From Roseovarius sp. 217 (GTDB lineage: Bacteria; Pseudomonadota; Alphaproteobacteria; Rhodobacterales; Rhodobacteraceae): a stretch of 64,000 bases of DNA. This document shows positions 8,199 to 60,048 of the stretch, in pieces; the stretch's first letter is position 1; every line of letters begins with the position of its first letter. The position numbers and the translations under genes were made by a program. Location of the stretch: positions 1,330,933 through 1,394,932 of the forward strand of contig NZ_CH902584.1 in the NCBI RefSeq assembly GCF_000152845.1. Direction: 5' to 3'. The notes below the pieces were generated by a model. It saw only the letters and a list, made by a program, of their open reading frames with translations. It was not told the origin of the DNA and ran no database searches.

Positions 8199-8284
<86 letters not shown>

Positions 8285-26997: not shown

Positions 26998-28044
26998 ATG
27001 GCCATGTTCATCCTGCGTCGCGTCGGGGTCATGATCCTGACGGCGCTCTGCCTGACGTTTATCGTTTTCTTTCTGACCAACCTCTATCCCAATCTGGAAA
27101 AGCTCGCCAAGACGCAGGGCGATTTCCGCATGAGCGATGAGGAGGTGGCGAGCTATCTGGGCCGCAATGGGTATTTGCAGCCCATGGCCGTGAAATACGG
27201 GCAATGGTTGGGTGTGGTGCCGGGGTTCGTGATCGAGGATCGCGACGGGGTGACACGCGGGCAGTGTATCGAAGCCGGGACCGCCCCCGAAGATGCCCCG
27301 CGATTCTGTGGTATCCTTCAGGGGGATTGGGGCTATTCCACCGTGTTTCGGGAGGATGTCGGCAAGATCCTGAACGACAAGCTGGCGCTGACCGGAAAGC
27401 TCATGTTCTGGGTGATGGTGCTGATGGTGCCGTCTGCGCTCATCCTCGGGATTTTGGCGGGGATGCGCGAGGGGTCGCGCACCGACCGGACGCTGTCGAC
27501 GATTGCCATCACCACGACCGCGACGCCGGAATATGTGTCGGGCGTGCTCTTTATCGCGGTGTTTGCCAGCACGGCCGTGGGCCTTAAATGGTTCAAGGGC
27601 ACCGCAACTGCGGCGATGGATGGGGCGAATTTCGAGAATTTCTTTTTGCCGGTGCTGACCATCGCGCTCTATGGCATGGGGTATATCGCGCGGATGACGC
27701 GGGCGAGCATGGCCGAGGTGATGACCGCACAATATATCCGCACGGCCCGCCTCAAGGGCGTGAGTTTTCCCAATGTGGTGATGAAACATGCGCTGCGGAA
27801 TGCATTGATTGCGCCATTTACCGTCATCATGCTGCAGTTTCCCTGGCTTTTGAACGGCGTTGTCATCGTCGAGACGCTGTTCAACTACAAGGGCTTTGGC
27901 TGGACGCTGGTGCAGGCGGCCGGGAACAATGACATTGAATTGCTGCTGGGGGTTTCAGTGATCTCTGTGGTGGTCGTTCTGGTGACGCAACTGATCTCGG
28001 ATATCGGGTACGTCTATCTCAATCCGCGCATCAGCGTTCGCTAA
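26998..28044 (+). CDS. Peptide-type ABC transporter permease (DppB/OppB family)
   Basis: 348-residue inner-membrane permease. The N-terminus MAMFILRRVGVMILTALCLTFIVFFL is the first membrane helix typical of DppB/OppB, followed by a large periplasmic segment and five further helices. The cytoplasmic EAA loop ARLKGVSFPNVVMKHALRNAL contacts the ATPase. It starts an operon with a second permease and a fused ATPase. No periplasmic binding protein is encoded here, so it must be elsewhere or the system uses a shared one. Confidence 0.92.
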   Translation: MAMFILRRVGVMILTALCLTFIVFFLTNLYPNLEKLAKTQGDFRMSDEEVASYLGRNGYLQPMAVKYGQWLGVVPGFVIEDRDGVTRGQCIEAGTAPEDAPRFCGILQGDWGYSTVFREDVGKILNDKLALTGKLMFWVMVLMVPSALILGILAGMREGSRTDRTLSTIAITTTATPEYVSGVLFIAVFASTAVGLKWFKGTATAAMDGANFENFFLPVLTIALYGMGYIARMTRASMAEVMTAQYIRTARLKGVSFPNVVMKHALRNALIAPFTVIMLQFPWLLNGVVIVETLFNYKGFGWTLVQAAGNNDIELLLGVSVISVVVVLVTQLISDIGYVYLNPRISVR

Positions 28045-53566: not shown

Positions 53567-54559
53567 ATGGGGACGAAAATCGCTGCGCGAAATCTGATCA
53601 CCGATGTGGCGGGGCTGCGCGTGGGCCATGCGCAGGATATGCGGCTGCGCTCGGGTGTGACGGTGCTGGTGGGCGATGCGCCCTTTACCGCGGGCGTGCA
53701 TGTCATGGGCGGCGCGCCGGGCACGCGTGAGACGGACTTGTTGGCCCCCGACCGGGTGGTTGAACAGGTGGATGCGCTGGTGTTGTCTGGCGGATCGGCC
53801 TTTGGTCTGGATGCGGCATCCGGCGTGGCGGATGGGCTGCGCGACATGGGGCGCGGGTTTGCCGTGGGTGATGTGCGGGTGCCGATCGTACCGGGGGCGA
53901 TTCTCTTTGATCTCTTGAACGGCGGGGATAAGGCGTGGCGCGAGAACCCCTATAAACCTCTGGGCCGGGCGGCGTTGGCGGTGGCGACACAAGACTTTGC
54001 GATCGGCAGCGTCGGGGCCGGAACCGGGGCGACCACGGCCAATCTGCGCGGCGGGCTGGGATCGGCCTCGGTGACCTTGCCGGGGGGCGTGACGGTGGGC
54101 GCGCTGGTTGCGGTCAATGCGCTGGGCTCTGCCACGGTGGGCGACGGGCCAGAGTTCTGGGCGGCGCCATTCGAGCGGAACGCAGAATTTGGCGGGCGGG
54201 GGGTGGCGCGGGCCTATCCCGATCCGGTGCTGGCGCCAACCAAGCTGGCGCAACATGGCAATACCACGATTGGAATTGTCGCCACCGACGCCACGCTCAC
54301 TCAGGCGCAATGCACGCGGCTGGCCACGGCGGCGCAGGACGGGTTTGCGCGGGCCTTGGTGCCCTCGCATACCTTGATGGATGGGGATTTGATTTTTGCC
54401 GCAGCCATGGGCGCGCGGCCTGCGCCCGATCTGGCCGGACAGGTGATGCTGGGTCATGCTGCGGCATGCGTCATGGCGCGGGCAATTGCGCGGGCGGTGT
54501 ATGCCGCGCAGTCGGTTTCGGGCGATGCGTTGCCGGCGTGGCGGGACAGATTCGGCTGA
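53567..54559 (+). CDS. P1-family (S58) peptidase, DmpA type
   Basis: 330-residue self-cleaving N-terminal-nucleophile hydrolase (L-aminopeptidase D-esterase/beta-peptidyl aminopeptidase). The cleavage site is the Gly-Ser in [11 protein letters not shown], which would split the chain into alpha and beta subunits; [17 protein letters not shown] and [17 protein letters not shown] are conserved. It may cut peptides with D- or beta-residues, in line with the D-amino-acid genes elsewhere in the window. Confidence 0.9.
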
Positions 54560-54587
54560 GGCGGAATCCCCCTTGCAGACTCAGGGA

Positions 54588-54607
54588 GAGGGGCGTATAT
54601 GCCCCTC
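54588..54607 (+). promoter_or_regulatory. Hairpin in the rimP leader
   Basis: GAGGGGC-GTATAT-GCCCCTC, perfect 7-bp arms at 54588-54594 and 54601-54607, ahead of the terminator at 54654-54677. Between them GGTCCACTCG and CGGAGAGTG may also pair. Probable structured leader. Confidence 0.5.
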
Positions 54608-54653
54608 AACAGCGGCGCTTTCGGGTCCACTCGAATGCACCACCGGAGAGTGT

Positions 54654-54677
54654 AACGGGCCGCGCGCCCGTTTTTTT
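54654..54677 (+). terminator. Terminator/attenuator before rimP
   Basis: AACGGGC-CGCGC-GCCCGTT followed by TTTTTT: a textbook intrinsic terminator. It ends only 13 bases before the rimP start, so it either ends the P1-peptidase transcript or acts as an attenuator in the rimP-nusA-infB leader. Confidence 0.8.
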
Positions 54678-54690
54678 GTGCTTGGGAAAG

Positions 54691-55266
54691 ATGACGAACG
54701 ACCTGATTGCAAAAGCAGCGATTGATCGCCGGATGGCAGAGATCATCACCCCCGTGATCGAGGATCTCGGGTATGAGTTGGTGCGCGTGCGGTTGATGGG
54801 CGGGCAATACCACACCCTTCAGATCATGGCGGACAAGCCTGATGGCGGCATCGAGGTGGATGACTGCGCCGTGATCAGCACGGCAGTGAGCGCGGTGCTG
54901 GATGTCGAGGACCCGCTGGTCGAGGCCTATACGCTGGAAGTGTCGAGCCCCGGCATTGACCGGCCCCTGACGCGGCTCAAGGATTTCGAGGCCTTTGAGG
55001 GCTATGAGGCCAAGATCGAGACGACCGAGTTGATTGACGGGCGTCGCCGCTTCAAGGGTGTGCTGGCGGGCGTTGAGGGCACCGAGGTGCTGATCAATGT
55101 CGAGGAAGGCACGATCGGACTGGAATTTGACTGGCTGTCTGATGCCAAGCTGGTTCTGACGGATGAGTTGATCAAGGAAATGCTGCGGCAGCGCAAGGCG
55201 GCGGGCGTGATCAACGAAGAGCAATTTGACGAGATCGAAACCGAGAACGGTTCTGAGGAGGACTGA
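54691..55266 (+). CDS. rimP: Ribosome maturation factor RimP
   Basis: 191-residue factor for 30S assembly. [46 protein letters not shown] and [12 protein letters not shown] are family blocks; the C-terminal Sm-like domain follows, plus an acidic tail. It heads the rimP-nusA-ylxR-infB operon. The ATG at 54691 sits right after GGGAAAG. Confidence 0.94.
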
Positions 55267-55270
55267 CACG

Positions 55271-56890
55271 ATGGCAATCACATCCGCCAACCAGCTGGAG
55301 CTGTTGCAGACCGCAGAAGCGGTCGCGCGCGAAAAGATGATCGACCCGGCACTGGTGGTCGAAGCGATGGAAGAGAGCCTCGCCCGCGCCGCCAAGAGCC
55401 GCTACGGCAGCGAGATGGATATCCGGGTGGAGATCGACCGCAAGACGGGCCGTGCCAAATTCACCCGCGTGCGGACCGTGGTCGCGGATGACGCGCTCGA
55501 GAATTATCAGGCCGAAATGACGGTCGAGCAGGCCAAGCAGTTTCTGGACGACCCCAAGGTCGGCGATGCCTTTGTCGAAGAAGTGCCGCCGGTGGAAATG
55601 GGCCGGATCGCCGCGCAGAGCGCCAAGCAGGTCATTCTGCAAAAGGTGCGCGAGGCCGAGCGGGATCGTCAGTTCGAAGAGTTCAAGGACCGCGTCGGCA
55701 CGATCATCAACGGGGTGGTCAAGCGCGAGGAATATGGCAACGTCATCGTCGATGTGGGCCGGGGTGAAGCGATCCTGCGCCGCAACGAAAAGATCGGGCG
55801 CGAAGCCTATCGCCCCAATGACCGCGTGCGTTGCTACATCAAGGATGTGCGCCGCGAACAGCGCGGGCCGCAGATCTTCCTCAGCCGCACAGATCCGCAG
55901 TTCATGGCCGAACTGTTCAAGATGGAAGTGCCCGAGATTTACGACGGTATCATCGAGATCAAGGCCGTGGCGCGCGATCCGGGCAGCCGGGCCAAGATTG
56001 CCGTGATCAGCTATGACAGTTCGATTGATCCGGTCGGTGCCTGCGTCGGTATGCGCGGCAGCCGGGTTCAGGCGGTGGTCAACGAATTGCAGGGTGAAAA
56101 GATCGACATCATCCCGTGGAACGAGGATCAGGCGACCTTCCTTGTCAACGCGCTCCAGCCGGCCGAGGTCAGCAAGGTGGTGATCGACGAGGACGCGCAG
56201 CGCATCGAAGTTGTGGTGCCGGAAGAGCAGCTGAGCCTTGCCATTGGGCGTCGTGGTCAGAACGTGCGTCTGGCCAGCCAATTGACCGGGCTTGATATCG
56301 ACATCATGACCGAGGCCGAAGATAGCGAGCGCCGTCAGAAGGAATTCGAAGAGCGCACCAAGCTGTTTGTCGATACGCTCGATCTGGACGAGTTCTTTGC
56401 GCAGTTGCTGGTCTCTGAAGGGTTCACCAACCTCGAAGAGGTGGCCTATGTCGATCTCGACGAACTGCTCGTGATCGACGGCGTTGACGAGGACACCGCG
56501 GCAGAGCTTCAGGCGCGGGCGCGTGATGTGATCGAGGCGCAAACCAAGGCGGCACTGGACAAGGCGCGCGAACTGGGTGTCGAGGACAGCCTGATTGCGT
56601 TCGAGGGTCTGACCCCGCAGATGGTGCTGGCGCTGGCCGAGGACGATGTGAAATCGCTCGAGGATTTCGCCACCTGCGCCGATTGGGAACTGGCTGGCGG
56701 CTGGACCACGGTCAAGGGCGAGCGCGTCAAGGACGAGGGTATTCTGGAGAAATTTGACGTCTCGCTGGAAGAGGCGCAACATATGGTGATGACCGCCCGC
56801 GTGATGCTGGGCTGGGTCGATCCGACCGAACTCGAAACCGATGCCGACGACAGCGAGATCGACGGCGATGACGAGGAGGCCGAGGCCTGA
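55271..56890 (+). CDS. nusA: Transcription termination/antitermination factor NusA
   Basis: 539-residue protein. The N-terminal RNA-polymerase domain is followed by S1 ([24 protein letters not shown]), two KH domains ([37 protein letters not shown]), and two C-terminal helix-hairpin-helix repeats ([23 protein letters not shown]). An acidic tail closes the protein. Five bases after rimP. Confidence 0.98.
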
Positions 56891-56913
56891 TCCTTCAGGC
56901 CTTGGAGCACAGG

Positions 56914-57537
56914 ATGGGGCGCGGTGGTGAACCCAAAGACCGGAGCGACGGTCCCGAGCGTAAATGCATCGCCACAGGCGAGGTGCAGCCAAAACACGGG
57001 CTTATCCGCTTTGTGATCGGCCCCGAGGGGCAGATTGCCCCGGATCTGGCGGAAAAGCTGCCGGGGCGTGGCATATGGGTCGCCGCGGATCGGGCGGCCT
57101 TGGACAAGGCGGCAACCAAGGGTCTGTTTGCCCGCGCCGCCAAGCAGCCTGTGCAGGTGCCCGAAGGTCTGACTGATAAGGTCGAGGCCCTCTTGGTGCG
57201 GAGGGTGATCGACCTCATCAGCCTCGCCCGCAAGGGCGGGCGCGCGGTGTCGGGATATGAGAAGGTCAAGGACATGCTCATGCGCGAGGATGCGCGTGTT
57301 CTTATTCAGGCCAGCGATGGCTCTGAACGCGGAAAATCAAAGCTGAGCACGCCGCATGGCGGCTCATTCATCGGGTGGCTGACAGCGGATGAGCTGGGCC
57401 AGGCCTTTGGTCGACAAACCACAATCCACGCGGCACTGGGTGCTGGAGGTTTGTTGCAACGTGTTGTAGAGGAGGCGGCAAGACTGAAAGGTCTGCGCGT
57501 CTCGGACGGCGAGACAGCGCGCCGGAAAGGAAAGTAG
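56914..57537 (+). CDS. YlxR-family RNA-binding protein (DUF448)
   Basis: 207-residue protein with the YlxR domain (ERKCIATGEVQPKHGLIRFVIGPEG, then LPGRGIWVAADRAAL) and an L7Ae-like C-terminal part (VIDLISLARKGGRAVSGYEKV). Standard member of the nusA-infB operon; ATG at 56914 follows GGAG. Homologues bind RNA and can affect RNase P in other species. Confidence 0.9.
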   Translation: MGRGGEPKDRSDGPERKCIATGEVQPKHGLIRFVIGPEGQIAPDLAEKLPGRGIWVAADRAALDKAATKGLFARAAKQPVQVPEGLTDKVEALLVRRVIDLISLARKGGRAVSGYEKVKDMLMREDARVLIQASDGSERGKSKLSTPHGGSFIGWLTADELGQAFGRQTTIHAALGAGGLLQRVVEEAARLKGLRVSDGETARRKGK

Positions 57538-57543
57538 AAGACT

Positions 57544-60048
57544 ATGAGCGACAACGACGGAAAAAAACCATTGGGTGTGCGTGGCGCGGGTTCCCGGCCG
57601 GGGAACGTGAAGCAGAGCTTCAGCCATGGCCGGACCAAGAACGTCGTGGTGGAAACCAAGCGCAAGCGCGTCGTCGTGCCCAAGCCCACCGCCGCCGCGA
57701 CCGGCGCTGCCGGGACTGGAACGTCTTCGGGTATCACCAGCGCGTCCAAGCGCCCGGCCGGGATCTCTGATGCAGAGCTGGAGCGCCGGATGCGCGCGCT
57801 CGCCGCAGCCAGAGCGCGCGAGACCGAGGATGCAGCACAGCGCGAAGCCGATGAAAAGGCCCGCGAAGAAGAGCGTATGCGCCGCCGCGAAGAGGCCGAG
57901 GCCAAAGAGCGCGAGCAGCGCGAGGCCGAGGAAAAGGCCCGCGCCAAGGTCGAGGAAGACGAACGCCAGAAGCGTGCGACCGAGCAAGCCGCTCTCAAGG
58001 CGGCGGCATCGGCGGCAGAGCCGGATGCAGTGCCTGCTGCGGCTCCGTCTCGGGCGCCCGCCTCCAAGGTGACCCCCGTTGCGCGCAAGCGTGAGGAAGA
58101 CGATCAGCAATCCCGCCGGGGCAAGGCGCGTGGCACGGATGATGCACGCCGGTCCGGCAAGCTGACGCTCAATCAGGCCCTGTCTGGTGGCGAAGGCGGT
58201 CGCCAGAAATCCATGGCCGCGATGAAGCGCAAGCAAGAGCGCGCGCGGCAAAAGGCAATGGGCGGCTTGCAAGAGCGCGAAAAGATCGTGCGCGACGTGC
58301 AACTGCCCGAAGTGATCATGGTTTCGGAACTCGCCAACCGGATGGCCGAGCGCGTGGGCGATGTCGTCAAGGCGCTGATGCAAAGCGGCATGATGGTCAC
58401 GCAGAACCAGTCGATTGATGCCGATACCGCAGAGTTGATCATCGAGGAATTCGGGCACCGTGTGGTGCGCGTGAGCGACTCGGACGTCGAGGATGTGATT
58501 GATCAGGTCGATGACAAGCCCGAGGATATGATCTCGCGCCCGCCGGTCGTCACCATCATGGGCCATGTCGACCACGGCAAGACGTCGCTTCTGGATGCGA
58601 TCCGCGATGCCAAGGTTGTCGCCGGCGAGGCCGGGGGGATCACGCAGCATATCGGGGCCTATCAGGTCAAGACCGACAGCGGCGCGATGCTGACCTTCCT
58701 CGACACGCCCGGTCACGCGGCCTTTACCAGCATGCGGGCCCGTGGCGCGCAGGTGACGGATATCGTGGTTCTGGTCGTGGCGGCCGATGATGCGGTGATG
58801 CCGCAAACCATCGAGGCCATCAACCACGCCAAGGCGGCCAAGGTGCCGATGATCGTGGCGATCAACAAGATTGACAAATACGAGGCCAATCCGCAGAAAG
58901 TGCGGACCGATCTCTTGCAGCATGAAGTGATTGTCGAACAGATGTCCGGCGATGTTCAGGATGTCGAGGTTTCGGCCGTCACCGGACAAGGTCTGGATGA
59001 GCTGTTGGAGGCGATCGCCCTTCAGGCCGAGATTCTCGAACTCAAGGCCAACCCGAACCGGGCGGCTGAGGGTGCGGTGATCGAGGCGCAGTTGGATGTG
59101 GGCCGCGGTCCGGTCGCAACCGTGCTGGTCAAGAAGGGGACGCTGCGTCAGGGCGATATCTTTGTCGTGGGCGAGCAGTATGGCAAGGTGCGGGCGCTGA
59201 TCAACGACCGCGGCGAGCGGATCAAGGAAGCGGGTCCGTCGGTGCCGGTTGAGGTTCTGGGTCTGAATGGGACCCCCGAAGCGGGCGACGTTCTGAACGT
59301 GGTCGAGACCGAGGCGCAGGCGCGCGAGATCGCGGAATACCGCGAGAGCGCGTCAAAAGAAAAGCGCGCCGCTGCCGGGGCTGGCACCACGCTGGAGCAG
59401 CTATTGGCCAAGGCCAAGGAAGACGAGAACGTCAAGGAGATGCCGATCGTCGTCAAGGCGGACGTGCAAGGCTCTGCCGAAGCGATTGTTCAGGCGATGG
59501 AGAAGATCGGCAACGACGAGGTGCGCGTGCGCGTGCTTCATTCGGGTGTGGGCGCCATCACTGAATCCGATATCGGTCTGGCCGAGGCGTCCGGCGCGCC
59601 GGTGTTCGGCTTTAACGTGCGGGCCAATGCGCCGGCACGCAACAGCGCCAACCAAAAGGGTGTGGAGATCCGGTATTACTCGGTGATCTACGATCTGGTC
59701 GACGATGTGAAAGCCGCCGCAAGCGGTCTCTTGGGCAATGAAATTCGCGAGAAGTTCATCGGCTACGCCAAGATCAAGGAAGTCTTCAAGGTGACTGGCA
59801 TTGGTCGCGTGGCTGGCTGTCTGGTGACCGAAGGCGTTGCACGGCGGTCTGCCGGTGTGCGTCTGTTGCGCGACGATGTCGTGGTCCATGAGGGCACGCT
59901 CAAGACGCTCAAGCGGTTCAAGGACGACGTCAACGAGGTGCAGTCCGGTCAGGAATGCGGTATGGCGTTCGAGAACTATGACGATATTCGCCCCGATGAT
60001 GTCATCGAGATCTTTGAGCGCGAAGAAGTGGTGCGCACACTGGCGTAA
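57544..60048 (+). CDS. infB: Translation initiation factor IF-2
   Basis: 834-residue GTPase that places fMet-tRNA on the 30S subunit. A long charged N-terminal region (residues 70-250, rich in Arg/Glu/Ala) precedes the G domain [20 protein letters not shown] near residue 335, DTPGHAAF and NKIDK. Domains II-IV follow ([14 protein letters not shown]). It ends the operon; a hairpin terminator lies at 60074-60103. Confidence 0.98.

Follow-up and report, generated by a model that had tools for sequence, protein, structure and literature searches.

A conserved leader with an intrinsic terminator and a covarying 5' hairpin upstream of rimP-nusA-infB in Rhodobacteraceae

The rimP-nusA-ylxR-infB operon of Roseovarius sp. 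217, contained in the 64,000-nucleotide stretch of contig NZ_CH902584.1 analysed here (the window), is preceded by a leader of about 70 nt that was also found before rimP in all the other protein-chosen loci (81 of 81, the window plus 80). Sequence and conservation reveal in it a promoter-like element, an intrinsic terminator, a covarying hairpin and a linkage to rimP, with no space for a promoter behind the terminator. On balance, we regard this leader as a probable transcription attenuator of the operon, in which read-through would most likely be set by NusA and to which an extra 5' hairpin has been added. The coordinates of its elements and of the genes that follow are given in Table 1.

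Table 1. Elements of the leader and genes of the rimP operon (window coordinates)
Feature	Coordinates	Strand	Basis
-35 box TTGCAG of the leader promoter	54573..54578	+	TTG-N20-TAT in place in 125/132 loci
-10 box TATATG, 17-base spacer from the -35 box	54596..54601	+	comparison of loci
Inverted repeat bracketing the -10 box	54588..54607	+	90% complementary; not conserved, probably outside the RNA
Leader RNA, ~70 nt	54608..54677	+	81/81 rimP loci; model R1, 83.1 bits; predicted start, end in the T-run
5' flank AACAGC, conserved	54608..54613	+	ACAGC or ATAGC at the 5' end in 127/133 leaders
5' hairpin	54614..54641	+	compensatory changes
Stretch ACCGG linking hairpin to terminator	54642..54646	+	ACCGG in 106/133, ACCGG or ACCGA in 125/133 leaders
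Intrinsic terminator, GGGC..GCCC stem, seven T	54654..54677	+	stem pattern in 125/133 leaders
Possible ribosome-binding site GGGAAAG	54684..54690	+	by eye
rimP	54691..55266	+	Pfam RimP_N, NCBIfam RimP
nusA	55271..56890	+	Pfam NusA_N, NCBIfam TIGR01953
ylxR-like gene	56902..57537	+	Pfam YlxR
infB (IF-2)	57544..60048	+	Pfam IF-2

Promoter, terminator and upstream gene

The best named relative of the window rimP is that of Roseovarius mucosus (97% identical). In 125 of the 132 loci whose upstream sequence is long enough, the promoter pattern lies just 5' of the leader, and offset positions gave 0 matches against 6.4 expected; the seven loci in which the strict pattern is absent are L058, L151, L154, L158, L160, L162 and L165. 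The spacer is strictly 17 bases in 130 of the 132 loci, and in 111 the -10 box reads TATATG or TATATC, without the final T of the Escherichia coli consensus. Many promoters of this bacterial group lack that final T and are CarD dependent. A scan for E. coli-type promoters reported none in the leader region, the combination TTGCAG-N17-TATATG being below the scan thresholds. Transcription would start at about position 54608, as judged by its spacing from the -10 box and by the onset of conservation.

The original prediction had placed an intrinsic terminator directly ahead of rimP, and this element proved to be conserved in relatives. It consists of a 7-bp stem, a 5-nt loop and 7 T residues, with pairing probabilities of 0.95 to 0.98 in the window, and both stem and loop are nearly invariant among the leaders. 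A terminator scan detected 2 terminator-like sites in 2 kb, compared to a mean of 1.1 in shuffled sequences, which by itself is weak evidence; the terminator is taken as real because of its conservation and not because of the scan. From the end of the T-run to the start codon of rimP there are 13 nt in the window, and 10 to 52 nt across the 81 loci. The gap of the window leaves no space for a promoter, and rimP is therefore reached by read-through. A promoter located wholly between the terminator and rimP, the arrangement said beforehand to be incompatible with such control, is thus excluded in the window.

Architecture and covariation of the 5' domain

The order of elements was maintained in the 81 loci, with small variations: AACAGCGGC, the hairpin, CCACCGG, a short variable stretch, and ACGGGC-CGCGN-GCCCGT followed by the T-run. 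When 71 distinct leaders were aligned with plain MAFFT, RNAalifold returned the 5' hairpin (columns 7 to 39) plus the terminator. In this alignment 97.5% of the hairpin cells were paired, and two-sided changes were present in 64 cells, compared to 28.3 in shuffled alignments and at most 11 with slid partners; 4 pairs had changed on both sides, which was unexceptional (62 of 500 shuffles). A second set of 97 more diverse leaders was aligned by the covariance model, which biases the alignment towards the structure, and rendered 96.0% of cells paired, 115 two-sided cells (38.1 in shuffles, at most 14 with slid partners) and 9 pairs changed on both sides, versus 4.7 in shuffles. Covariation in relatives, proposed beforehand as a check, was obtained for this hairpin, which the prediction had not named; the perfect hairpin and the alternative pairing that it did name were not convincingly supported.

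The prediction had described a perfect hairpin at the repeat bracketing the -10 box. The repeat is present in the sequence, but pairing of its arms in relatives was at chance level: the 7-base arms were fully paired in 3 of 132 loci, with a mean of 2.40 pairs, while shuffling the partners gave 2.33 ± 0.08, and the repeat was accordingly ruled out as a leader structure. Given that it brackets the conserved -10 box, it probably lies upstream of the transcription start. It is shared by the window with a few close relatives and is not conserved more widely.

Folding energies were unexceptional in the window (z of -1.66 for positions 54575 to 54700 and of -0.54 for 54607 to 54680), and across the family single-sequence folding was mildly better than in shuffles, with a mean z of -0.88 and 44% of values below -1, compared to 0.05 and 18% in control windows. 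The loop of the 5' hairpin is variable. Since it often reads UCCAMA, mimicry of a tRNA anticodon loop was considered, and dropped because this pattern appears in only 74 of the 133 leaders. The most diverged leaders belong to genus g31 (L159, L163, L164, L165 and L217), with a longer terminator loop and a stem of the form GGGGCC..GGCCCC or similar.

Distribution of the leader

Covariance model R1 found one strong site in the window genome, the next match scoring 15.5 bits. Of the 292 genomes searched in the order, which all bear the label of a single family, 290 gave at least one match, covering all 112 genera (112/112). These figures count model matches, the model-found loci inspected singly being those given below, and in weak genomes the listed match may lie elsewhere. 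The two genomes missed by the model, G166 and G222, nevertheless carry the leader at rimP. Fifty-three model-found family loci were compared (3 from the class search, 30 picked mostly among low scorers, and 20 more), and rimP stood at the match in 52, the exception being a match at the wrong place in G222 (L166). Two further family loci from the phylum search also have rimP at the match. In one genome R1 also matched a further site weakly (G149:C3:315239-315305, 27.6 bits), about 8 kb from the rimP leader of that genome.

Outside the family, all R1 matches were weak. At E ≤ 0.1 they occurred in 36 of 285 class genomes, and of 16 such loci fetched, 1 (L132) adjoins rimP. In the phylum search the best match outside the family reached 32.1 bits, and neither of the two loci fetched (L278, L279) adjoins rimP. 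An occurrence of the whole leader beyond the family was consequently rejected, the model matches being weak and the loci fetched, except L132, lying away from rimP.

For their part, other Alphaproteobacteria share the terminator, not the Rhodobacteraceae leader. A terminator was present in 61 of 85 rimP upstream regions, with a GGGC..GYCC stem in 45, compared to 4 and 3, respectively, of 81 control windows further upstream; regions and controls have 40 nt in common, and contig ends truncated two of the regions. ACAGCGG appeared in 0 of these 85 regions and CCACCGG in 3. A hairpin of different sequence precedes the terminator in some of these bacteria (L187, L191, L216, L224, L226, L234 and L235). 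In the 61 regions the mean z of such hairpins was -0.55 ± 0.17, with 31% below -1, compared to -0.19 ± 0.13 and 13% in the 61 matching control windows, a modest enrichment that is no more than suggestive.

Possible function and relation to known leaders

Attenuation of rimP-nusA-infB by the leader terminator, as originally predicted, agrees with the conserved promoter and terminator and with the 13 nt separating the latter from rimP. RNA polymerase would start near 54608 at a dedicated promoter, make a small hairpin and then meet a strong intrinsic terminator, so that many transcripts would probably end early and the operon would be expressed only by the polymerases that read through. Most likely NusA, which promotes termination at such sites, would determine the fraction reading through; abundant NusA should therefore leave fewer operon transcripts. 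The 5' hairpin and its AACAGC and ACCGG flanks would be an addition of the Rhodobacteraceae, probably serving as a site contacted by NusA or by some other factor, as a pause hairpin, or as a protector of the released short RNA. Termination in vivo, NusA as the effector and a role for the hairpin are what we infer from the sequences; by analogy with other bacteria, feedback by NusA on the operon is likely. A strong terminator alone could set a fixed ratio, and the near invariance of the terminator loop, together with the 5' domain, hints at a specific partner, which might be a factor other than NusA.

More tentatively, one of the operon's own products (NusA, RimP or IF-2) may bind specifically to the 5' hairpin and flanks, or the 70-nt RNA, once released, may be an as yet undescribed trans-acting small RNA of the family, a proposal that we put forward with considerable reserve. 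If it is true, one RNA meters the operon and signals elsewhere. A rival reading, in which the released RNA serves chiefly as a stable trans-acting small RNA while the operon is expressed by read-through, strikes us as unlikely. It would fit the layout (a 5' hairpin, a conserved single-stranded stretch and a terminator with seven U residues), the listing of the rimP leader among ProQ-associated small RNAs of enterobacteria (PMC5391140), and a precedent in the family, since UpsM of Rhodobacter sphaeroides is described as released by termination from a leader (PMC5089854). UpsM, likened here by description and not by sequence, is likewise a Rhodobacteraceae-specific 5' leader whose Rho-independent terminator can release a short RNA, although that leader is 268 nt long and belongs to the dcw operon (PMC5089854). 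Against the trans-acting reading, the leader adjoins rimP in all but one of the 53 model-found loci, as expected of a cis element.

Regulation by the RNA itself, either through pairing of the 5' GGCGCG with the 3' arm of the terminator to form an antiterminator or through a competing fold, is much less probable still. The antiterminator pairing is possible in 93.0% of cells; however, none of its pairs is changed on both sides, shuffles perform equally, and forcing it costs 3.1 kcal/mol relative to the best fold. The prediction had also mentioned a possible alternative pairing, which it did not spell out. In the window leader the 5' domain can adopt a competing fold of 11 pairs that beats the conserved hairpin by about 1 kcal/mol. 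This fold is poorly conserved, its pairs forming in 61.5% of cells compared to 60.1% in shuffles, with 5 of 500 shuffles attaining the observed value. Without a conserved alternative pairing showing compensatory changes, antitermination by RNA only was rejected. It is more improbable again that the terminator simply ends the upstream gene, rimP having another promoter. That gene, encoding an S58-family peptidase, is codirectional and ends at 54559, but a homologue exists in only 12 of 134 loci, being non-adjacent in two, and the leader is kept while the upstream gene differs. This reading was discarded on account of the changing upstream gene and of the conserved promoter lying between the S58 gene and the terminator, with no promoter space 3' of the latter. 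Attenuation through a translated leader peptide can scarcely be credited: the window leader does contain ATG CAC CAC CGG AGA GTG TAA, but an ATG is present in 33 of the 133 leaders and at no fixed place, and the absence of any conserved short open reading frame among the 133 led to its rejection.

The favoured reading, attenuation with NusA feedback, has precedents. Naville and Gautheret (2010) named the "rimP-leader" and proposed NusA feedback for it (PMC2965389). As described there, that element shares with ours its place before rimP-nusA-infB, a GGGc..gCCC terminator stem with a U-run, a distance of 4 to 130 nt to the gene and no visible antiterminator, and the present loci likewise have a terminator directly before rimP, the GGGc(...)gCCC stem motif and no conserved antiterminator. 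In that survey nothing larger was seen to be conserved (PMC2965389), whereas the Rhodobacteraceae add a conserved promoter, a covarying 5' hairpin and conserved flanks. In Streptococcus agalactiae, termination 31 nt after the start has been reported before this operon, and NusA feedback was suggested (PMC4448216). According to a 2025 review citing Mondal 2016, NusA of Bacillus subtilis is autoregulated by termination in the leader (PMC12288461). That system shares attenuation in the leader of a NusA-encoding operon; the effect of NusA was measured there (PMC12288461) and is a prediction for the Rhodobacteraceae leader. The B. subtilis leader, likened without sequence comparison, has about 180 nt (PMC2965389) against about 70. 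In E. coli NusA is described as controlling its own operon, and the metY-nusA-infB leader also carries terminators ahead of rimP, but a tRNA gene comes first and there are several promoters (PMC6511841); the sole tRNA gene that ARAGORN found in the window is at 8199-8284. A fusion of the E. coli rimP 5' untranslated region and open reading frame fell in a Rho mutant (PMC7815308), and by analogy further regulatory layers may exist.

No description of the Rhodobacteraceae 5' domain was found in the open-licence PMC literature searched, subscription papers and supplementary tables being outside this scope; the hairpin domain thus seems undescribed, while this kind of terminator and the idea of NusA feedback are already in print. 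The mechanisms that set the level of the core factors NusA and IF-2 have been elucidated in few bacteria, so a compact leader, present at rimP throughout the Rhodobacteraceae sampled, offers a clean system for asking what feedback needs besides a terminator hairpin. It is also a candidate RNA family absent from Rfam 15, with a covarying domain that the general rimP-leader description lacks. Rfam families matched neither the window leader, the two matches in the window lying elsewhere, nor the leaders of 20 divergent family loci. The small RNA SorX (RF02784) shares a hairpin, a single-stranded stretch and a terminator; it was the best subthreshold match (16.4 bits against a gathering threshold of 46.6), had none in those 20 loci, and was set aside. 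One of the window matches, Cis52_sRNA at 27622-27799 on the minus strand (119.4 bits), lies antisense within a 348-aa open reading frame (26998-28044, plus strand), and its conservation may simply be that of the coding sequence.
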